Below, in pieces: positions 10,947 through 26,040 of a stretch of 64,000 nucleotides of DNA (position 1 is its first letter; every line of letters begins with the position of its first letter). The notes beneath the pieces are model-generated. The model ran no database searches and had not been told where the DNA came from. It was given only the letters and a program-made list of their open reading frames with translations. The DNA lies in assembly GCA_023078555.1 (NCBI GenBank), contig CM041202.1, forward strand, positions 6,124,522-6,188,521, read 5' to 3'. The translations under genes were made by a program, and so were the position numbers. This DNA is from Ulva prolifera (lineage: Eukaryota; Chlorophyta; Ulvophyceae; Ulvales; Ulvaceae).

Positions 10947-11844
10947 CACACAGCAGGGAGCATTGCGGCTGGGCAGGTGCTGTGGATGCATGCTCCGTGG
11001 GCGGGTGCTGTCTTTGATGCCCTGTGCATGCAGGCAACGCCCACACGTGCGGGTGGAAACGAGTTTGCAAAGAGCTGCAGGCTCCACGTGCTGACACAAG
11101 CTGCATTAGGAGAAAGCATTTCTGCAATTCGTCAGCTGCTCAGAGGACTGCAAGGGCGTGCTGTGATGGGATTCCCTGCCAGCCTGAGTTGTGTTGTCTA
11201 GTTGTACCCGTCACAGGGGTTGGTCATCCCGCTCCGGCGGGTGACTGTGTGGCTCCATCAAGCGCTTGCGCTGGTGGGGTCACCGCTTATCGCAGATCGT
11301 GATACGGTCATACCACCAGGAAAACAAGCGATCCCATCAGAACTCGCAACTTAAGCCTGGCTTGATGTATTTGTTTGCTTTGCCATATAATGGCCCGGAC
11401 CGGGCTGAAAATTAAGGCACCCGAAGTTGCAATTAAGGGTTAATCAAGAACACTTAATTAAGGGTCAAATTTCGTGTAACTTACTCGAGTGCAAAACCGT
11501 CAAATTAAGGGTTTTTAAGTGCCTTAAACTGTGTTCCTGGCACCAAATTAAGGGTTTTTTACAGATTAATTTTAACTTGCGGGACATGTACATGTGTGTA
11601 CACGTGTGCCTGCTTGCAGCCTTGGCTGCCCTGCAACTCCAGCCAAGGCTGTCACGCTGATGCTGAAGTGTGTAGCACATCTCCAATGCAGTTTTCTGAT
11701 AGTGCACGGAAATTGGATACCACATTCATACGTTATGCTTGCCTAGATGGGTAACGGAAGACATCATGTGAACAGCAGTTGCAGCACAGCAGTCTGTACA
11801 TGTACAAATCCCTCAGAGCACTCGTTACACATATGTGGTCCCGT

Positions 11845-12613: not shown

Positions 12614-13593
12614 TATGTGTAACTTGATTACGTCACCGGGGTTGGTGTGCTGCACCTATCTGGGACGCCTCAACTGGTGGTTGAGACGGTGCTGGCTGTT
12701 CGCAGTGCCTGGTGCACTGCTGGCAATGAGGAAACCATATGATGAGTCTTATGTGGTGGTGCATAAGAGTGAGGCAATGCACATGTCCACTAGGATGTTT
12801 TTGAAAGAACACACCAGTACAAATTGACCGGAATGAATGGCAGGGCGATGAAGCAGGACAGTCCAGATGGGGACGAGCCATCCATCAAGCCATCGAATTC
12901 AACCACACGGTGTACCTCACAAAGAAGAGTGATTTACATGGAGCAGCATGCGTTCACTCCGCAGCATTCACTCATAGCATACCCACTGCAGCGAGGCGCC
13001 TCTGCATCGACCCCACCATCACCAGCTACCATCACCAGGTACACAGATATCCATTTCTTAACCTTCACGACACGTGTGCACCCATGCCGGTCACAACTGT
13101 ATATGCCTCTTTGGCCGTGCTCTACTGAGTCGCCAGCCACCACTACGGCCATATCCGCATGCCCTGGCTGCCCTATCACATTCACTTCACTCACACCAGA
13201 CTGCCTGTATCTGCCCTCTTGACCCCCATCTGTCGCTCTGCCCCACTACAACACCCGCATCAGCTCACAAACCTACATACTGCCACCTGCCCAAAATCGA
13301 GCCCGGCATGCCACACACTAGACATGCTCCTCCCGAACAGCACACTCCTCCCCCAACCTCCTCCTTGTCCAGCCCGATGTCCATGCCACCACCACAGGCC
13401 CTCCGACACAAACAATCGAGGTGCGGCACCACGGCCCGCAGCGGAGCGCCCACACTCACCAGTGCCCACCGCCGCTGACATCCGTGAATGTATCACCTCG
13501 CGACCAGAAAACGAAGAGCACCTGGCCACGGCAGTACGCTCACTGGCTGCAGCCCCATAGCGGACAGAGGCGCGGCCAGTGTGTGTTTTTTCA
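12614..13593. other. Spacer / K+ channel 3' flank
   Basis: Contains the presumed 3' UTR of the K+ channel gene (minus strand). The 12.9-13.5 kb part is C-rich on the plus strand and gives long but low-complexity Pro/His/Thr frames that I do not regard as coding. The only TGTAA noted on the minus strand lies about 660 bp after the stop, so the poly(A) site is undefined. Confidence 0.4.
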
Positions 13594-16500
13594 TCACCGC
13601 CTCCGGTCGCCCTCCAGGCTGCTCTCCGACAGCGAGCTGTCGATGATGCCGCTCGTGTGGATCGACGGCGTCAGGTCCGACGTCGCGGAGTGGAAGCGAG
13701 TCGGCGTCGGCGGCATCCCGTCGCTCTGCATCGAGTCCTGCAGCCGCTCCCCGCTCTCCGCCTCCCGCGCCAGCTCCCCCAGCAGCTGCTCGGTGTCCGG
13801 CTGCTGGAACTCCGGCATCGGGAACTCGAACGACTGCGTCGGGTCGGTCGTGGTGACGGCGGCGCCGTGCTCAAACATTGCCGTCGACGCGCGCCACACG
13901 CGGCCCGGCCGGGCGTCCGGGCTGGAGCTGCCGGAGGAGGGGCGGTTGCGGGGAGAGGTCTTGGGGGAGGTGCGGGGGCTGCTGCTCCGGCCGGGGGCCG
14001 TCGAGGGTGTGGTGTGGACGCTGGCGCCGCTCGCGCCGCTGATTGCGCGCGCCATGCGGCTTGCCTCGGAGCGGCGGGTCGGGGACGCCGAGGCGCGACC
14101 GGGCGCGGCGCCAGGGCGCGGGGGGAGCTGCAGGGACGCGGAGGAGCTGCTGAGCGTGTCATGCAGTGCGCATGCCTTGGCGGCGCCAGGAGACTTGGGT
14201 GCCGTGTGGCGGTGCGGTGAGCTCGCTTCAGACCACACGGCCGAGTTGCCGGCCGCCGCGGCGGCGGCGCTCGGCGAGCGGCCGGAGCTGCGCGGCCGCG
14301 CCTGCATCACACGGTCAAGCGCCTGCATGCGTGTCTCGGCGACGGTCCGCATGCCACGGCGGCCGCGGCCGCGGCCGCGCGCGGCCGCGCCGCGGCCGCT
14401 GCCCGCAGTGCCGCCGCCGCTGCCGTCACCCGGCAGCTGCCCGCCGCTGCCGAAGGAGCCGGTGTTGTGCTGCGAGAGCGACCCAAGGCTCGCGGAGCTG
14501 CCAGCCCCACGCGCCGCGCCGCTCTGGAAGTCCAGCGCGTTGATGCCGCCAATCGACAGCGTGATGCCTGCCTCCTCGATCATCTCCCCGTACACCCCCC
14601 GCTGCCCGATGCTGCGCTGTGCGAACAGCGCCGCCCCCCCGGGCTTCCCCGCCTCCACCACGTCGTCCGGCAACCCAATCGTGTCGCTGTCGGCCATCGT
14701 CGAGAACTGCGACCCGCCGTGCCGCCCGGCCGCCCCCAGCAGCCGGTCGCCGCCGCTACCCTCACTCAGCGAGCCACTCTGCCGCTGCGCGCTCTCGAGA
14801 ATCGCTGCTGCGACTTCGTCTGCCGACGCGGCCACGCTGCCGTCACCAGTGCTGCGCGACGTGCGCCGCGCGGGTGCGGACCGCGGCCGCGCGTCCGCCG
14901 CCGGCCGCCGCCGGCTCTGCCTGCTGCTGCGGCTCTGCCGGCTGGTGTTGCTCTGTAGGCTGTGCTCGCTGTGCGCGCTGCGGGGGGTTGTGCCGCATAG
15001 ATAGTTCTCATCGCTGATCGGCCGGGGCCGCTCCGGGCTGCTGCCGGCGCGCTGCCGCGATGTCGGGGAGGGGGCTGGCGCGGGCTCCGGCCAGGCGGCG
15101 ATGTGGCCGGGGGGGTGCTCGGCAATCGGAGGGTGTGCGGGGACCGCAGCGACGTGGACCGGCATCGCGAGGTTCGTCTCTGATGCAAACCGCCGGCTGC
15201 GGTTGAGTGCTGAGCTCAATGTGGACGCGGGGGGCAGAGCGTCAGGGTCTGGGGCCAGTGCAGCGCTACCTGTGGCCACCGCCTCGTCAGCGGGACGCCA
15301 CGTGGCACTTCTTTTCACCACTAGGTGCACGCTCAGGCCACAGCAGCACATCCACAGCAAGTGACCTAGGAGGATTGTCAGCCAGATCAGACATCCGCAC
15401 CAGTACAGCGACAAGGCCCACGCTGTATGCTTACGCACTTTCCTTTCAACAGACGGATGAGTTGCCAACGGCCTCTCTCGGGATACGCAGTGGATCTACC
15501 TTTATTTCATATTACAGACACCCTCATGTCAACACACTGCAGCTGCGCGCGGCCATGGCTGGCCAGCAACGCGAGCGGCCCGTGACAGCTGCCCGTGACA
15601 GCGCCCTCGCTGCGGGTGGTGCAGCCCGGGGCAGAGTGGGGATGAGGGCGCACTGCTGACGCCACCCTGGGTGACTTCCGCGGCGCGCTCCAGCACGTGC
15701 AGCATGCTCTCGCTGCCGGCGAAGCGCTCCGCCTCAGTGACCGCCGTGTTGCCCCACGCGTCCGCCGCGCCGACGGCCGCTCCCTTGCTCAGCAGCAGCT
15801 GCACCGCCTGCAGCCACAAGCAAAGCTGCAATACCGCTCCAATCGATGCACAATGTGTTCTGATAGAGGCCCGAAATACAGAAGTCTATCCCGTTGACAG
15901 CGTAGACTGCTCCTTGTGGGCAGGCCACAACCGCCTGCTGCTGGAATCACCACGTCGTGTTTGAGCATCCGCTCTTGTACTGTTACACAGAAATGCATAG
16001 TATCGTGGGGCTTTGGGCTCCGCAGTTCCAGTCAACCAGCCGCTTGCACACCACATGCAGGGCGCGTGCCGTGCACCAGCGGGCACGTATGCCACGTTCC
16101 GAGCAACGCAAATGCCTCGACGCAAACGCTTGCCTGCATTGCATGCCGCAGCAGAGGACGGCTGGATGGAGGTGAGTGATGTGTCGGGGTCCATCGGGCC
16201 GGACGTATGTATGTAGTTACAAAGGACAGAGGCCGGGCGAGTCCGGCCGTATGTAGTTACAAAGGACAGAGGCGGGGCAGCGAGCCGATGCCAGGACGGC
16301 CGTATGTAGTTACAAAGGACAGAGGCCGGGCAGCGAGCCGTTGCCAGGAATACACACGCAAATCCACTCACGCAGTCATGGCACTAGGCCGGGCACGAGC
16401 ACGTACCACAGCTCGGCCGGTGATGCCAGCCAAAGATTGAAGCCCCGCACGGAGCACAAGAGCATTCCCCTTAGACAACGCCACACTCAACCGGCGCAGA

Positions 16501-19500
16501 GCATTCGTCACAAACAAAGCACGGTTCACCGTACCACACCGAGACGCAACCTCCGCCAGCCGATTCAAGTGATTCATGGCAGGCCGCCCCAAGCGACCAT
16601 GACACGGCCGTATGTATGTATGCATGGTTACATAGCCGTATCCGTTTGGACATTGACAACTCCGAAATCTGGGACCGCGCCGGACCAAAGTCCGGGACGC
16701 GGAGCCGCGGGTGGCTGAGGTGTGGGTGGCTGAGGTGTGTGCGCACCGTGCGGTCCTGCTCACGCACGGCGGCGTGCAGTGCGGTGCGGCCGTCAGGGTC
16801 CGCCGAGTTGACGAGCCCGGCGTCCCCTCCTGCCGCTTCCAGGTACGTCTCGAGCAGCGGCAGGTCGTGGCGCCGCACGGCGTCGATGAGGCGCGCCGCA
16901 ATGGCCGCGCGGCGCCGCCGGGGCGCGTCGCCGCACAGCGGCGCGCCAGCCGCTGCGAGGCCCGCCACGATCGTCCGGTGGTGGCCGTGGCACGCCAGCA
17001 TCAGCGCCGTGCTGCCGGTTTGATCCATGCTGCACATGCATGTGAGCGTGGTCACGGCGGCGGCGCCATGTCGCGTATGAAGCACGGCTGGCGTCGGCCG
17101 CGGCTTGTCCGAGGCGGTGAGCCGAGAGCATTCAGGACAACACGCTACGGCAAATGCCATTGGAACGTTCTAGAACTGATACAAGTGCAGCTGAGTAAAT
17201 GGAGCAGCGGCTCACATCGTGCGCTCGCAGTGGGGACCGAACAAGAGCAGACTCACTGCAGCAGATGAGACAGGGTGGGTGAGTCGCGGGCGGAGGCAGC
17301 CCCCGTGGGCGGGCTCATGCGCTCCCAACCGGCGTCGGTGGCATGCATGCATGCACGCCTCCGGAGTCACAGAACCTATAGCGCCACAGCTGCAGGGCAG
17401 CAAAGAGCAGGGGGAGGGGCGCGCACAGGCGGGAGCCGAACTCGGCGATGTCATGGTCGCCGCAGTCGAGGAACTCCGCAACGCATGCCTCGTGGCCGCT
17501 CGCGCATGCATGCATCAGTGCCGTGCGACCGCACACATCCTGCCTGCACAGCACAGCACAGCGCGTTGCGCACAGATCCCAGCCCTTCGGCCCCTGCTTG
17601 CATGTTGCCGTGAGGCCCACCCTGAAGTTGGTCCATGTGGATTGCCCCGGCAACGGTGGCGTCACACATCCCAAGCAGCAGCAGTGGCAGATGATGGGTG
17701 CTCCTGGCTAGCAGCGCTGGGCCGCCCTTCTTGATGCATGCAAGGTATTGAGGCTTAGGTACGCTTTCCGGGCGGAACTTGACTGATCACCGATGTCCAT
17801 GCAACGTAGAGTTCCTGATGCACAACAATGAGATGGGCGAGGTCGTGGCAAGGGACTCTGACAGCTCGACAGCACATCAGCAGCAGCAGAGGAGAGGGGC
17901 ACACAGGTGGGCGCCGAGGGTGGTCGGGGCGTCGCGGACAGATAGCAGCCGCCGCACGCACAGTGCGTGGCCACCAGCGCATGCCTGCATCAGCGGCGTC
18001 TGCCCGAGGCCGTCCCGCCTGCACGACGTCAGCAGCCACCGTTATGCTGGTCACCAATACATGCCCAGGGCTGAAGCCTGGGCTGAGCTTTTCAGCAGGC
18101 TGGCAAGGATGATGCCCTCTCGACTGTGATGCCCTCTGGACCGGTGATGCCCCCGACATCACAATGAGATTGCCAACGCGCATGTGGCCATGCCTACAGA
18201 TTCCATCATATGCTTGCACGTTTGCTACAGCCAATGCAAACGCCTGCATGCATGTGCCCAAACGCCTGCATGTGCGCCCAAATGTAGAGCAAGCAACAGG
18301 GCAGCACGCACTTGGTGAGATCTGTCGTCGGGTATCCCTGTTTGTCACGCTGTGCAAGCAGTTTCGCGAGGACCTCGGTGTGGCCCAGCGTGGCCGCCAC
18401 GGCTATAGGGGTCCGGCCCGCGCGGTCCTCTCGGTCGCCCGCCGCCCCCCGCGCCAGCGCCTGCGCAACCCCGGCTGCGTCCCCTGTCGCCGCCGCCTCG
18501 ACGCACCGCTCCTGCTCTGCGTGCTGCTGCCGCCGCAGGGCGGAGCGCGCGACCTGCAGGCCGATCTCCGCTGAGACGACCGACGCGGCGATCGCGGCCG
18601 TGTGTGCTGGCAGCTGCGTGGCCAGTGCCCCCTCCTTGATCGGTGGCAGCTCCGCCATCGCGCCAGTGTACACGACCGACTGCTTGTCGGCCGCGGAGCG
18701 CTCGTCCAGGGTTCGGGTGGACAGGCACGGCAGGCAGGCGCGCCACGCGGCCCGTGCGCCGCGCGGCGCAAGCGGGGGGTCCTCCCCAGCTTGCGGCAGT
18801 GACGGCATGCTGGGCATGCGGTGCCGGGTGGAGCCGCTCGTCGGCCGCGGCAGCAGCTGCAGGAGGTATGTGATCGCGAGCGGGTCGGCGGGGTTCTGGT
18901 TCCGCGTCAGCCCCTGCACGCAGCGACTGTTATGCATGGCATGCATGCATGCCTGCATCTGAACTTCTCTCATTCCTTTCGGGTTCACAGCCGCTTACAA
19001 TTTGGCCGGCGGAATCTCGCCTACACAGCCTGAATCCCGTGTGAAGCACAGCACACCGTGTGGCGCACGTGTGCCATGCGATTGCTACGCAGACAGATAA
19101 AAGACGCGATGGCACGCACCACGTGCTTGATCGCCTTGCGCAGGGCGTCGCGCGTCTCGTCCTCCGCCACCAGCGCCGCCGCGTCCATCGCGCCGACGAT
19201 CGGCGTGTAGCTCGAAAGGAAGATGTCGTCCGCCGACTCAAGCTGCGCTGCAAGCAGCGCGGCGCTCGAGCCCGCCCGCGCCGCCTCAGCCACCGGCGCC
19301 GCCTCCGCCGCCTCAGCCACCGGCCCCGGCTGTGCCGCCTCAGCCACTGCGGCAGCCTGGATCACCGCCGTCACCTCCCCGTCCACACTGCCGCGCTCCA
19401 TGCTGCTCTTCCCGCTGCGCCCTCGGAACCACGACCGCGGGCCGCTCCTCGGCCGCGGGGTCTCTTTCGCCGAGGTGTCGTCGGCGCCGCCGATGCCGCG

Positions 19501-22500
19501 CGGCGAAGGCATCCATTGCGCCGCGTAGATGTCCATTGAGTTGACGGCCATGCCGCTGAGCGGCGACGCCCGCTGCTTCGGGGGCGCGGCGGGTACGGCG
19601 CCGTTGTGGACGTGCGCTGTGATCTCGGCACTCGTCTGCGGCGACATGCCGCCGCTGTTCGAGCTACGCGTGCGCATGAAGATGCCCAGCGTGTCCTGCC
19701 GTGGAGTCGAGGTGTCGGAGGCCACCGTGCGGGCGGACGACGGGCGGCCGTCCACGTCCAGCCGGTACGCCGCCCCCGCATGGCTCTCATGCGCGACGGC
19801 CGCCGCAGCGGCAACGACGTCGCAGCTGCGTGGGCTGCCGCGCTTGCTCGCTGCGCTGAGCTCCGGAGACCCCGGCCGGTCGATCAGCGACGTCGCGTGG
19901 AACCCTGTGCGTGCCGACGCGGCGGAGGAGGGCAGGGGGCCGCCAAAGGCACCGCCGAGGCCAGACCCCGGGTCGCCACGGTCGCTACGCGGGCTGTGGG
20001 AGCGGCTGCGGCTGCGGGCGGGGGGCGAGCGTCCGGCGGGGGGGAGCGGCGCGTCGAGGAACGCTGACGTGGCGGCAGTGATGGCGGCGGTGGCCTTGGC
20101 TTGCGCGTGGAGGTTGCTGACGATCTCTGCCGTGCACTCCGGGTAGAGCTCGCGGAGGCGCATGAAGTCGTCGTGGCCGAGGGCGAGCACGCGGCACATC
20201 GTCACCGTCTGCACCGTCTGCAGCCAGCCAGATATTTTTTATTTCCCGCAAGTGAACTATGGCAGCGCATGTGGGGGGGGGAGTGGCTGTGGGGTTGCGG
20301 CTTGTGATTCACTCAGCCCAGCATGCGTTTCCAGCATGGGGACGACGAATGTAACAAGCGCGCGTAGGCGGTGAGTTGTGCTGCACTGGTACTGTAAATT
20401 CCTGCTGTAGGCAGGTCACAAGCCGGAAACGGTCGTGTGCTTCGAAGCTTGAGCGAAACCATCACATGTGGGCATGGCAGAGCGTCCAGCATGCCGCAAA
20501 GCACTGCATGTTCTATCATTCATTTTCGTGCACATGAGTATTTTGTTCCACATCGGCCCTCACCGCAACCGCCCATTCTGTAGCCCTCCCACTCGTCTTC
20601 CGATGTGTTTTGGCCACGTCAACGAGCACACGGGGCGCACCGTGTGGGACTCGGTCTCGCCGAAGAACGCCAGCTCTCCGACGGGACTGCCAGGACACAG
20701 CAGCACCTCCTCCTGGCCGTCCGCCGCCTCCCGCACCGCGTACTGCGCGGTACGCCCCCCCGGCCACATCGCCAGGATATCTTCGCCGTCGTCTGCGGCC
20801 TGCAACGAGCGCCGCTGGCGGTGGACCTGCGCCTTGGCGCAAAGCCGCGCGCCCTCCTGCGCGAGCCGTGCCGGCGCCGTCGCCGCCGTCACCGCCGTCC
20901 AGCTCGTCTCGGGGGGCAGCCGAGGCATGATGCTGCGGCGGCGGGGGTAGCGCTTTGTGGCGGTGCTGACACTCGGCCGGGATGACACTGATAGGTGGCG
21001 CAGCGCGGCGGCGATGCCGGAGGGCCGCTCGTCGTCGACATCATCGTCATGTACTACCACCTGCACTCCCGAGCGCACTTGCCGAAGTGCTTTATGTTGC
21101 ACGGCGTCAGCGTGCGGGAAGAGGCAGCCCTCATCAGTGTCATCGCGACACACCGCCGCCATACCTGAGAAGAGCCCTGTAGGGTTGCTGTGGTAGCCAG
21201 AGCAGGTTGCCAGTGGTCACCCATGCGCCATGGTGGTGACATACGCCCACCGCGGCGCCACTACCGACTTGCAGGCCGGGGGCATTGAAGTGCCACACAC
21301 GAGGCCGGTGCACGGACGCATGGGCCACGTCCACAAACAAGTCCCGCACGCGTCAAGGCTTGCACCAGCAAGAGGGTAGCAGCACATGTAATGCATGCAC
21401 TTCATGCATGCATGACATGCGCGCGGCGCGCACCCGCATTTCGCCGTCGAGGAGGATGAGGAAGTCGTTGACGCGGGCGCCGGCCTCGATAACGGCGACG
21501 CCGGGGACGTATATGTCCACTGTGCCGAGGTCGAGCATGGTGAGCAAGAAGTTTGGCTTGCGGGCGATGAGGGGGGACGCGAGGAGGTAGCAGCCGTGCA
21601 GCTGCTCGAGGTACAGCGCCCGCAGCACGCGCCGTCGCACGGCGCGCGGGAACTTGCTCAGCACCTCGCTGTCGCGGATCTGCACCACGCATGCATGAGT
21701 CGTGCCGACGTAACACGTGTGGGACATGCGCATGGCGGACACTGCGGCAGAGGTTGGAGGGCGGGTGCGCGATTCTGGGGCGCGCAGGGGCTGCCAGGGG
21801 CTGCCAGGGGCCGCAGCGCAGCGGCCGTGGGGAGTGCCGCTGCGAGGGGGTGCGCTTCGTGCACCGCAGGCCTGCTCTGCCAAAAATTCAACCAGCAGCC
21901 ACCAAGGCGCTGTCCTCCTCTGTGTAACATGTGATACCCACCGCCACACGCACGCCCTTGCGCCTTTAAGGATGACACACGCACATGCATGCCGCAGCGG
22001 CGGCCATGCATTGCAGAGGAGAGGCGCCGGGCCGTGCCTGCTCGTGCTCGAGGTGGAGGTCGAGGTGCTCCTGCATCTCCCGCAGCAGGCGGCCGCCGCC
22101 CGCGCTGCCGTCGAGGCCGTTGAGGCGCACAAACTCCTTCAGGTTGCGCACATTGTCCCGCCGCTGCCCCGCGGCCTCGTCCTGCTTCGTGACGACGAGG
22201 GTGATCGTGCCGACGATGTACGCGACGACGCCCATGTTGATGATCATGTACACCTGCAGCCACCGCCCGCTTCAAGCGTATGCATCCGGAGCACGCGTGT
22301 GCTCCTCGGCAACAAGGTCGCACTGTTGCGCCAGGAACAGAGCCCAACACACGTCCCGAGGCGGGGCAACGGGCAGGCATGAGTGTCTGTATCATCACGC
22401 CGGGCAGGGCGTCTGTGTCTCTGTCAGAAGTCCGCGCCGCGGTGCCGCAGTGCGAGACAGACGGCCCTTGGGGGGGGGCGGCTTAGATGTTGGGGAGCCG

Positions 22501-24046
22501 CACCGTCACAAAAACCTGCTCGTCGACGGTCACCGGCGAGAAGTCGCCGTAGCCGACGGTGGTCAGGGTGGTGACGCTCCAGTACAGCGAGCGCACGTAC
22601 CGCTCGTACGTGCTCCAGTCGCGCAGATCTGCCGGCGTGAGCTGGAACCACACGAGGTCCGAGGCGTCAACCGCGCGGGCCGGGTCGCCCGGCGGGAGGT
22701 TCGCAAAGTCGGAGTAGAACTGGTAGTCGGCCATGAAGTAGAAGAGGCACGCGAAGAGGTGCGTGATGCCGAGCACGAGCTGGACGTTGCGCCAGATGGT
22801 GAAGCTCATCAGCGACACGATGCCGGTGCGCTCGAGCGTCCACATCAGCGACCACACGCGGTACAGCCGCAGCTGCATGCATGGCCGCACCGTCACTGAC
22901 CGCCACAACGGCCAAACAAAGCCGGCTGACACGACCAGGTCTGCCACTGCTGGTGTGCATCCATGCATGCTGAGACGCAGGTACAGCGGAGCAGCCAGGC
23001 TGCTCAGCTGTACCTGCATCTGCGCATGCATGCCTCCACACCGGCGTTTTCAGACCTAGTCGTCTCAGCCAGCTGGCAGCCAACATCCACTTTGAGCGCT
23101 GTCGTGTGTACGCATGCCCCACATGCATGCGGTGCGTCTAGGGGGCACCACGCAGCTCCTGCCGAGACTGCGGACATCCAGCGCAGGCATGCCGCCGCAC
23201 AGGCCGCCGGGCGCCGCCGCCTGGCGCAGGTACGACGGGCGCAGGCAGCGGTGCTCCAGTACGGACGTCTCATGCAGGCGGGCGAGCCCGCATGCATGGG
23301 ATGCATGCGGCGGCGGAAGCGCACCAGGCGGAGGAGGCGGAGGAGGCGCAGCAGGCGCACGAGGCGCGCGGCCTCGTTCTCGCTGACATCGGCGCAGCTG
23401 TGCGAGTTCCCGAGGACCCAGTCAAAGGGGAACACGGCGACGACGTCCACCCAGAACATGCCGAGGTGGGGGAAGACGTGGCCGAGCACGTAGCGGCGGG
23501 CGATCACCCGGCGGTCCGTGACCCACTGCCTCGTCCGGCGGTCCCACACGGCAACGTTGAAGTTGACAAAGATGTCGATGAAGAAGAGCAGCGACAGGAC
23601 GAGCTGGATAAGGTCGAAGCCTGAGGAGGGGTCATGACAGAGATCTGCAAGGGCGGGAGTGGGTGGCAAGTTGCAGCAAGTCGAGCATGAGGCAGGAAAG
23701 GCGTTGGCTAGCACAATGGTGCTGTGATGGAAACAGGCGTGATGGCCACGGTGCGGATCTCAGAACTATAGCAAATGCCGGCAAATTCTGGGGCTCCACA
23801 ACTTCACTGTTGGTGTTTGGAAGCAGGCGCGTGTGTCCGTGGATCGGTTGGTGTCGACATCGCTGCCCTGAAAGGCGCACCGCCACGGTCCTTCGAGAAC
23901 GCGATGTCAAACGGCACGAAGATGACAGTGAAGTACGTCGCCATGACTATCACGATCCACCAGGAGTTGTAGGGAGTCCAGCTGATACTGCCCGTGAAAT
24001 CCTCTGCGCCAATGGGCAGGAACACCGGGAAGCGCTGCTTAGCCAT
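13594..24046 (-). CDS. Voltage-gated K+ channel with CNBD and ankyrin repeats (AKT/SKOR-like)
   Basis: Thirteen exons join with every phase matching: 24046-23881, 23620-23325, 22872-22504, 22253-22038, 21679-21434, 21060-20641, 20217-19120, 18913-18312, 18018-17905, 17543-17427, 17029-16747, 15807-15654, 15320-13594 (about 1,935 residues). S1 is at about 24-46 and S2 in exon 2. The S4 voltage sensor (RLVRLLRLLRLLRLLRLYR) spans the exon 2/3 junction. The pore has the K+ filter TVGYGD at about 259-264, followed by S6 in exon 4. A C-linker and a cyclic-nucleotide-binding-like domain follow (about 350-590), interrupted by an insert. Then come a 330-residue Ser/Pro linker, ankyrin repeats in exons 8-12 (about 1085-1350; TPLMQACAGGH, TALMHACASGH, TALHAAVREQD) and a 575-residue Ser/Gly/Arg-rich tail. 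Domain order matches plant Shaker-type channels, which are about 650-900 residues. Exon 4 ends at a GC donor. An upstream coding exon may be missing because only about 20 residues precede S1. Confidence 0.93.
16207..16348 (+). repeat. Tandem repeat, about three units, in K+ channel intron 11
   Basis: The unit GTATGTAGTTACAAAGGACA plus GAGGCCGGGC… occurs three times, with spacers of 10-24 bp that are partly repeated too (CAGCGAGCCG(A/T)TGCCAGGA). It is noncoding. Its start resembles the GTATGTATG(C)ATGGTTACATAG segment of the dispersed repeat copy 270 bp downstream. Confidence 0.8.
16614..16680 (+). repeat. Dispersed degenerate repeat, copy 2
   Basis: Reads GGTTACATAGCCGTATCCGT followed by TTGGACATTGACAACTCCGA, the least degenerate copy seen. 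It lies in K+ channel intron 11, on the strand opposite to transcription. Confidence 0.65.
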
Positions 24047-26040
24047 GCCTGGCTGTCGTCAATAAGACTTGACGGTTGCTAGATCTGCAGTGCTGAACGC
24101 CTCTAAGATTCGATGCGCGGTTTGTTCACGGCCAGAGCCGATGCGTGCTCAGCAGCTGAGTGCCCATAGTGGTGCTCATCACGATGCCATCAGACTGAAG
24201 CCAAAGCGGCATCTTCGCCGAGGCTCAGTAGCAAGCATACTCACGTTCCCTTCTGAATCGGATAACAGTGCCGAACAGTGCCGAACGGAGGCACCGCCAT
24301 GGTGCACGTTGAGACGTTGTTGCGGGCACCATCTGCGCGACATGTGCGGGCTGACGCCCAGCTGCCGCCTCAAAAACAAAGAGCAGGCATCAGACATAAA
24401 CACAATAGAGTATCGCACAGTTTATGTATGGGATGGGACGAGTTTAGCAAGGCCGTTTGCGCTCCCCAATCGTCACTGCAACGAAAGCGAACGGCTGCAC
24501 ATGCCCCCCCGACCCGCGGGCCACAGAGGACAACAGAACAGAGAGCCCACGCTTACTCAAATACAGTACGTTGAGAAATTGAAGCTATGGTACGCGGATC
24601 AACCACGCCTTGGCGCAACTGCCTGTACAAGATGTAACAGACACAAAGCCAGAGATGTACTACACCGCAGGATGCAGAGCAGCTCTTGCTTGTCATCGCT
24701 GAGGAGATGTTGGCTGTGTCGCACGCTTCGACTGCAACGCGCGCAACGCTGCAGACGGGCCGGCACCGTCGCTCAGCGAGGTCGACTGGACCCGCATACA
24801 TCCGTAGGCATGACCTCAAGTTGTCCGTTGCATGACGCTCGCCCCGACCAAATCGAAGTGCCCAGCGCGCGCGCACTGTGTCTGCATCAGAGACGGTCGA
24901 TGCAACCATCAGCCGAGCGTGAAGTCAATAACGCGCTTTGCTGTCGCCGTGCAGATGGGGAACAGCCGTGATTGGACGACTGGGGCTTTACCACGCCAGG
25001 GCCGTGGCGATGGCACGGCGAGCAGTCTGGTAAGAGTACGCAACAACCTGGATGTCGCATCTGCACTACCTGCTGTCCCTACGCCCTTCTCCGCCGTTCG
25101 AGCGGGCCAAGGTGACGTTCCCATGGCAAGCGCCAGCCAAGTATAGCCGCGAGAAAAGCGACACAAGCGCACATCTCGGGGCTCAAGGAAACGTGCAGCT
25201 GCGTTACTTGGAAATATGCTGCTCACCAGTCCCCATGGCGCACAGCTTGATTTTACGTTGCTGCGCCCGCCCAACCCCCCGTCCGCCCAGCCCCCGTCCG
25301 CCCAGCCCCCACCCGCCCATCTGCAGCCCCGCCCGAGTTCCTATAGGAACTGATATATCAGCGAGGATGCGGCTGGCAGCTGGGAGGGGGTGAATCCGGC
25401 AGGCGCCCGGAGCGTGCTGCTGCGAGGTGACGCTGCCACGGCAGTACAAGCGGCCCCAGGCGGCAGACAGCAGAGCCGCCTGGCAGAGCTACTCCCGGGG
25501 AGCCGCAAGCCGCGCGCAAGGCTCAGCGCGGGCCTCCCAGCACACACCTGGGCTGTGACCAGGGCCCACTGCAGCGCCTACGCATGCATGTGCATGGAAC
25601 ATCATGCTGCGTGAGCAAACCCGCGTGTGTGTGGGGGGGGAGGCCGTGCATGCAACACCCCGACGAAGTGCATGTCGATGTACGGAGTGCAAGGCAAAGT
25701 TTAAAATCTGGCATTTCTTCAACGGGGTGTAACAAGGATAAGGGTGGCGAGGCGCGCAGCAACGCAAAAGCTAGCAGGCAGCAGATCAAGACCACACCCG
25801 GCTGCCCGGTGCCAACGCACCCGCGCCAACGCTCCCGTCACGCCCCCGCAAAACCCACAACGCCCCCAACAATGACATCGACTCCCAGAGCTCCCGACCG
25901 CCCCAGACACACCCACACCCACACCGCACTCCACACCCCAAAGCCTGTCCCCGCACAAGAAAGCCGCGCCCGACTCGGCACCGCCCGAGGCCGCCCGTCC
26001 GGGCCACGCGGCTGCCGCGGACCCCCTTCGGCGGGGTGAC
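24047..26040. other. Upstream flank of the K+ channel, no gene assigned
   Basis: This should hold the promoter and possibly a 5' exon of the K+ channel, but none can be fixed. A minus-strand frame around 25274-24909 and a plus-strand GC-rich frame around 25390-25612 are open without recognisable content. A C-rich array with a 15-bp unit (CCGTCCGCCCAGCCC) lies at about 25258-25325, and a Pro/Thr/His low-complexity stretch at 25795-26035. Confidence 0.35.

Follow-up and report, generated by a model that had tools for sequence, protein, structure and literature searches.

An oversized, predicted plant-type K+ channel gene in the chlorophyte Ulva prolifera, with long additions to a SKOR-like core

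The DNA analysed here, referred to below as the window, is a stretch of 64,000 nucleotides from Ulva prolifera (assembly GCA_023078555.1, contig CM041202.1, positions 6,124,522 to 6,188,521). Its minus strand carries a gene predicted to encode a very large ion channel. We take this gene, as the probable reading, for a chlorophyte member of the wider kin of land-plant voltage-gated K+ channels (SKOR/GORK/AKT type), a homologue that carries coding additions. Its translation has the domain order of these channels and aligns with them, and the added stretches have coding signal. As a predicted model, a channel gene with coding expansions is well supported; its fold would be ordinary and its length unusual. 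Compared with the usual land-plant voltage-gated K+ channel, the predicted product is over twice as large. The extra length is located in an insert of about 106 residues inside the cyclic nucleotide-binding domain (CNBD), a linker of more than 400 residues between CNBD and ankyrin repeats, two ankyrin exons and a C-terminal tail. Predicted exons, with positions in the window and transmembrane segments denoted S1 to S6, are as follows:

23881..24046, minus strand: exon 1, putative start methionine and S1; an in-frame stop lies closely upstream at 24059-24061
23325..23620, minus strand: exon 2, S2, S3 and most of S4; collinear with SKOR
22504..22872, minus strand: exon 3, end of S4, S5 and pore with the filter TLTTVGYGD
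22038..22253, minus strand: exon 4, S6 and start of the C-linker; GC donor at its end
21434..21679, minus strand: exon 5, remaining C-linker and first half of the CNBD
20641..21060, minus strand: exon 6, CNBD insert (21060-20743) and second half of the CNBD
19120..20217, minus strand: exon 7, end of the CNBD and Ser/Pro/Ala-rich linker
18312..18913, minus strand: exon 8, remaining linker and first ankyrin repeats (Pfam, SKOR alignment)
17905..18018, minus strand: exon 9, single ankyrin repeat, phase 2-2; counted as extra relative to SKOR
17427..17543, minus strand: exon 10, single ankyrin repeat, phase 2-2, resembling exon 9; counted as extra relative to SKOR
16747..17029, minus strand: exon 11, ankyrin repeats (Pfam, SKOR alignment)
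15654..15807, minus strand: exon 12, last ankyrin repeats; its end resembles the SKOR WGNT...EA repeat
13594..15269, minus strand: exon 13, tail of 557 residues and stop codon; 5' edge uncertain

Read from 24046 to 13594, the 13 exons form an in-frame model of 1,918 codons followed by a stop. An earlier note on this DNA had proposed a phase-consistent 13-exon model of about 1,935 residues; exon number and coordinates are matched exactly and the frame is continuous, but the length has to be corrected to 1,918. Since splice sites were picked by eye on the minus strand for frame and homology, agreement of phases at the junctions is no independent test. Acceptors read CAG in all 12 introns. Donors read GTGCGN in 10 of the 12, with GTGTGC at intron 9 and GC at intron 4. 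The N-terminus, the CNBD insert and the join of exons 12 and 13 are predictions only.

Pfam search of the model detected Ion_trans (85.6 bits with a cut-off of 25, E 4e-24), Ank_2 (5e-30) and cNMP_binding (1.6e-8), while NCBIfam added just K+ channel matches below cut-off. The selectivity filter, TLTTVGYGD, fits the K+ filter TxxTxGYGD, a motif of plant voltage-gated K+ channels described in PMC4565715. Judging by this filter, the channel should conduct K+. S4 displays seven arginines at exact three-residue spacing (R141-R159), more than SKOR has in the alignment. At DNA level, S4 is a nine-base repeat coding for Arg-hydrophobic-hydrophobic triplets, mostly Arg-Leu-Leu, that spans the junction of exons 2 and 3 (23325-23366 and 22858-22872, minus strand).

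Residues 1-431 were compared with PDB sequences. Among the best 60 of 202 matches, KAT3, SKOR and AKT1 scored about 2e-26, EAG about 3e-18 and HCN about 3e-13, corresponding to 96 bits for the best plant entries, 69 for EAG and 53 for HCN. With the CNBD completed and most of its insert omitted, SKOR became the top PDB match (120 bits). A further query included the remaining ankyrins but neither most of the insert nor the stretch 618-1061 nor the exon 9 and exon 10 repeats; its positions 26-716 aligned with positions 82-733 of the SKOR chain at E 1.7e-46 and 162 bits. This alignment is collinear from S1 through C-linker and CNBD to the last ankyrin repeat. Next came GORK (3.1e-44), AKT5 (2.7e-37), AKT1 (8.3e-36) and KAT3 (2.1e-32), whereas the best non-plant channels reached 72 (SthK), 70 (EAG) and 68.5 bits (HCN). 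Affiliation with animal EAG or HCN channels was rejected on these last two scores and on those of residues 1-431. Because the SKOR score rose in register from 120 to 162 bits once ankyrins were added, ankyrins and channel fit one gene lineage. Ankyrins taken alone did not place the family, their PDB matches being mostly designed or ankyrin-family proteins (best 60 of 62). Pfam domains and the SKOR alignment thus agree on a plant-type K+ channel core followed by ankyrins, and on the order S1-S6, C-linker, CNBD, ankyrin, both as previously proposed. Search of the whole assembly (88.9 Mb, 44 contigs) retrieved no closely related second copy of the gene; the 23 matches are seven of its own exons and 16 distant channel stretches. 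A nuclear-encoded Rubisco small subunit (RbcS) is present on two contigs of this assembly. Joined exons of one copy match seven PDB sequences at 4e-48 to 1e-44, among them the Chlamydomonas entries 1gk8 and 1ir2, ahead of a second group that includes spinach at 3e-37 or weaker, as expected of a chlorophyte. A search for rbcL gave no match, so the assembly seems to lack the plastid genome.

The relation to rectifier types is less uniform. SKOR and GORK, whose chains in the PDB have about 828 and 820 residues, are the best sequence matches from S1 to the ankyrins, and both the degenerate middle ankyrin repeat of SKOR and its final WGNT repeat are matched in the predicted channel. AKT1 and AKT5 alignments extend through the ankyrins as well, at 126-132 bits for these two and 99-116 for KAT channels, compared with 162 for SKOR. 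Marker motifs SFFT, DMI, AWxx and NLG were taken from PMC4565715 and the outward-rectifier filter from SKOR entries of the PDB search. All three marks of SKOR and GORK, namely SFFT in S1, DMI in S6 and the filter TMATVGYGD, are absent from the Ulva channel, and so is AWxx, found in S1 of KAT/AKT inward rectifiers. Its filter is identical with that of KAT3, and its S6 (IINMGVVAY) contains NMG where inward rectifiers have NLG, the asparagine being common to both. The marks are therefore mixed: filter and S6 asparagine are inward-like, overall score is highest to outward rectifiers, and the direction of rectification cannot be read from the sequence. The channel differs from SKOR/GORK and from AKT/KAT by the same additions, that is, linker, CNBD insert, two ankyrin repeats and tail, and by a KHA region that was not found.

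Coding signal of the added parts was assessed by a model of positional base use; its training set was 822 codons from conserved exons of this gene, and z values were calculated against shuffles. Being trained on the same gene, the model measures likeness to this gene's own codon habit. A leave-one-out control on 12 core segments recovered the true frame in 11. The 12 introns gave z from -1.0 to 2.1 in their best frames; here each shuffle was also scored by the best of its three frames, which makes the null somewhat stricter. The sole upstream candidate exon tested (24246-24421) was without coding signal (z -0.4).

Pfam cNMP_binding covers only the second half of the CNBD (residues 541-593). 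We read the partial match as a consequence of the insert, which interrupts the domain between two strands (residues 432-537; 21060-20743, minus strand) and was missing from the earlier list of extra length. Intron 5 could alternatively extend to an in-frame acceptor just before 20742, in which case the insert would normally be spliced out to give 1,812 residues, or both forms would exist. This acceptor is in phase, and the resulting join matches the SKOR CNBD nearly without gaps, as judged by eye. On the other hand, the insert has exon-like GC content (0.723) and frame-specific codon signal in each half (z 2.8 in both, 4.0 together), and we regard its routine removal as possible but on the unlikely side. 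The CNBD also bears a serine aligned with an arginine of a protein kinase A (PKA) CNBD, presumably the phosphate-contacting residue. As serine replaces the PKA-type arginine, control of the channel by cyclic nucleotides is unlikely, and a cyclic-nucleotide-gated channel was rejected as a candidate identity.

The Ser/Pro linker, already described between CNBD and ankyrins, has coding signal in both of its exons (z 7.8 for the exon 7 part, 4.5 for the exon 8 part). By eye it comprises residues 627-1042; in the SKOR alignment, residues up to 617 and from 1062 on meet adjoining parts of SKOR. Retention of bridge helices at both linker ends is likewise a reading by eye. Downstream, the ankyrin array contains two additional single-repeat exons, 9 and 10, which had not been mentioned before. 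Their DNA is identical in 78 of 121 aligned columns (z 7.5 versus shuffles), suggesting that they likely arose by exon duplication. The choice of these two as the extra repeats is ours; with them omitted from the query, the SKOR alignment still stays in register.

The tail lies entirely on exon 13 and shows the codon signal of the gene (z 9.2). A long single-exon tail, previously put at about 575 residues, is thus retained with its length reduced to 557. In the 200 bases inside the minus-strand stop codon, third-position GC amounts to 0.985 (z 6.0); past the stop it falls to 0.70 (272 bases, z 1.7), though an overlapping plus-strand frame continues there. This edge at the stop is the clearest evidence for tail coding on the minus strand. 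Taken whole, the tail favours the model frame over the plus strand by 12.5 bits. No second copy of the tail was found in the genome at E<=1.

Several findings weigh against a single gene of this extent and character. One donor in the predicted model, that of intron 4, is GC. The segment lost in the leave-one-out control contains the first ankyrins of exon 8, where a plus-strand frame was ahead by 8.4 bits. The first 265 nt of exon 13 score z 1.4 compared with 1.9 for the 226 nt before its acceptor, and because this signal edge is soft the exact start of the exon is uncertain. Of six tail segments, 13876-14154 gains 19.2 bits when read on the plus strand and 7.3 in a different minus-strand frame; one more favours the plus strand by 2.4 bits and one is level. 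Intron 12 contains TGTAA at 15516 and AATAAA at 15506, which could end a shorter transcript. Pfam search with a tail query of 558 residues returned no family at E<=1, KHA included, which PMC8644596 names as the region that closes the C-terminus of plant channels. As KHA was not found, we class the gene as a family homologue that carries additions and not as a canonical member. Finally, two points concern the supposed disorder of the tail: a charge-hydropathy test called it ordered, and low confidence of the AlphaFold2 model is weak evidence of disorder, since prediction was run without an alignment.

Some of these findings would also suit a channel that ends after exon 12, its donor being read through to a TGA near 15530 with cleavage in intron 12, and exon 13 being part of a separate minus-strand gene. 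Apart from the two signals in intron 12, this possibility draws on the weak coding signal in the 5' part of exon 13 and on the distance to the next TGTAA past the tail stop (12938, 656 nt off). However, coding signal is absent where exon 12 is read on into intron 12 (z -1.4) and slight where the tail frame is extended past the acceptor (z 1.6 and 1.9 in two tests), and exons 12 and 13 join exactly in phase, though their sites were chosen. The TGTAA in intron 12 would moreover fall just about 13 nt past the stop, and since the motif occurs 40 times on the minus strand of the window, one instance in the 384 nt of this intron is unremarkable. We therefore hold an end after exon 12 to be improbable. 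It is more improbable still, to the point of being remote, that the tail is a shadow of a plus-strand gene, for which the open plus frame with its GC-rich third positions and the tail segments scoring better on that strand could be quoted, because third-position GC drops from 0.985 to 0.70 at the minus stop although the plus frame stays open as far as 13322, and because the whole tail favours the minus strand. That plus-strand frame (13322-15001, 560 residues), antisense to the tail exon, has the same GC-rich third positions and was itself read as the shadow. Antisense open frames are expected in genes with high third-position GC.

A channel with its tail on exon 13 remains the preferred reading, and the nature of this tail was examined further. 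AlphaFold2, run on the single sequence, returned a mean predicted local distance difference test (pLDDT) of 42.5, with 452 of 557 residues below 50; its best helix, at tail residues 492-514, is predicted with moderate confidence. Order-promoting residues make up 14.9% of the tail and 46.7% of the core. The tail had been called disordered; pLDDT and composition agree with this, the charge-hydropathy result does not. Long disorder would not be odd in itself in a green alga: among 682 heat-resistant proteins of Chlamydomonas, one predictor assigned a disordered region of more than 100 residues to 127 and a second predictor to 6 (PMC5931566). Six types of kinase motifs were compared with composition shuffles in tail and linker. 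None of the six is in excess in the tail, where RxxS/T occurs 12 times and SP/TP 14 times, while composition would give 13.6 and 11.4, respectively. Because tail kinase motifs are no denser than composition predicts, the earlier suggestion of a phosphorylation platform is unsupported. Two motifs stand out in the linker, RxxS/T with P 0.024 and SxR with P 0.029, both values being uncorrected for 12 tests.

Four subunits would form the pore, gated by voltage, and the CNBD would serve as a structural coupler, not as a cyclic-nucleotide sensor. CNBD-ankyrin linker and tail might act as flexible tethers, which we favour over a role in phosphorylation, with the tail occupying the place of the land-plant KHA region. 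In GORK, a short CNBD-ankyrin bridge is tied to gating and sets a pre-open state (PMC12318183). Ankyrin array and tail of the Ulva channel may instead work as mobile docking arms that replace this short bridge. A bolder proposal, to which we assign a low probability, is that the ankyrin array has been freed from the gating ring: with more than 400 residues, probably flexible, breaking the GORK-type bridge and a tail of about 560 in place of KHA, the cytosolic half would be a tethered recruitment arm for channel placement or partner loading and would no longer control the gate directly.

Channels of this general kind are already known in the group, as diverse voltage-gated K+ channels including plant-type homologues (PMC3410407) and CNBD channels (PMC7576140) are on record in chlorophytes. 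Chlamydomonas KCN11, with a role in osmoregulation, is another chlorophyte K+ channel (PMC7372795). The full TxxTxGYGD filter of the Ulva channel differs from a survey that reports this filter in streptophyte but not in chlorophyte algae (PMC7336388).

Of 13 paralogous 10-kb regions fetched from the genome, two (L030 and L032) gave ankyrin matches. Here, neighbouring genes at about 3.531 and 3.549 Mb of contig C6 (L030:4350-5534 and L032:4255-5484, both minus strand) encode six transmembrane segments, a partial CNBD and ankyrins. Their domain order is the same as in the Ulva channel described above, with the CNBD part below the Pfam cut-off, and their identity to it is 29% and 26% over the matched part. 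Neither resembles its tail or linker at E<=0.01. In place of TVGYGD their filters read STASLVGD or STAGLVDA, and their pores, STASLVGDATPK and STAGLVDAMTPK in open frames, are without GYG; these genes possibly encode non-selective or silent channels. Third-position GC is 0.90 in conserved exons of the present gene compared with 0.54-0.65 in six paralogue exons (L030-L033), so base composition differs strongly between genes of one genome.

Two further features of the window were recorded. Heptamers cut in overlap from the run TGCATGCATG were counted 190 times in it, compared with 9-15 times in five shuffles. Within the channel gene, 64 are found in 4,696 intron bases and 7 in 5,757 exon bases; they are present in 8 of 12 introns, some near intron ends. 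Thirteen other 10-kb regions (L030-L042) contain 12-33 each. A 5S rRNA match was detected at 11300-11391 on the plus strand (48.2 bits, Rfam gathering threshold 38).

GC-rich algal genes commonly carry oversized loops and tails, and size alone is for this reason unremarkable. The chief interest of the gene lies in the position of its linker rather than in the length of its tail. If the model is true, a natural large insertion at the site of the GORK bridge would offer a ready test of whether this bridge must be short and rigid. A chlorophyte would then keep the full SKOR-like layout of pore, CNBD and ankyrins, which would bear on the age of this layout in green plants.

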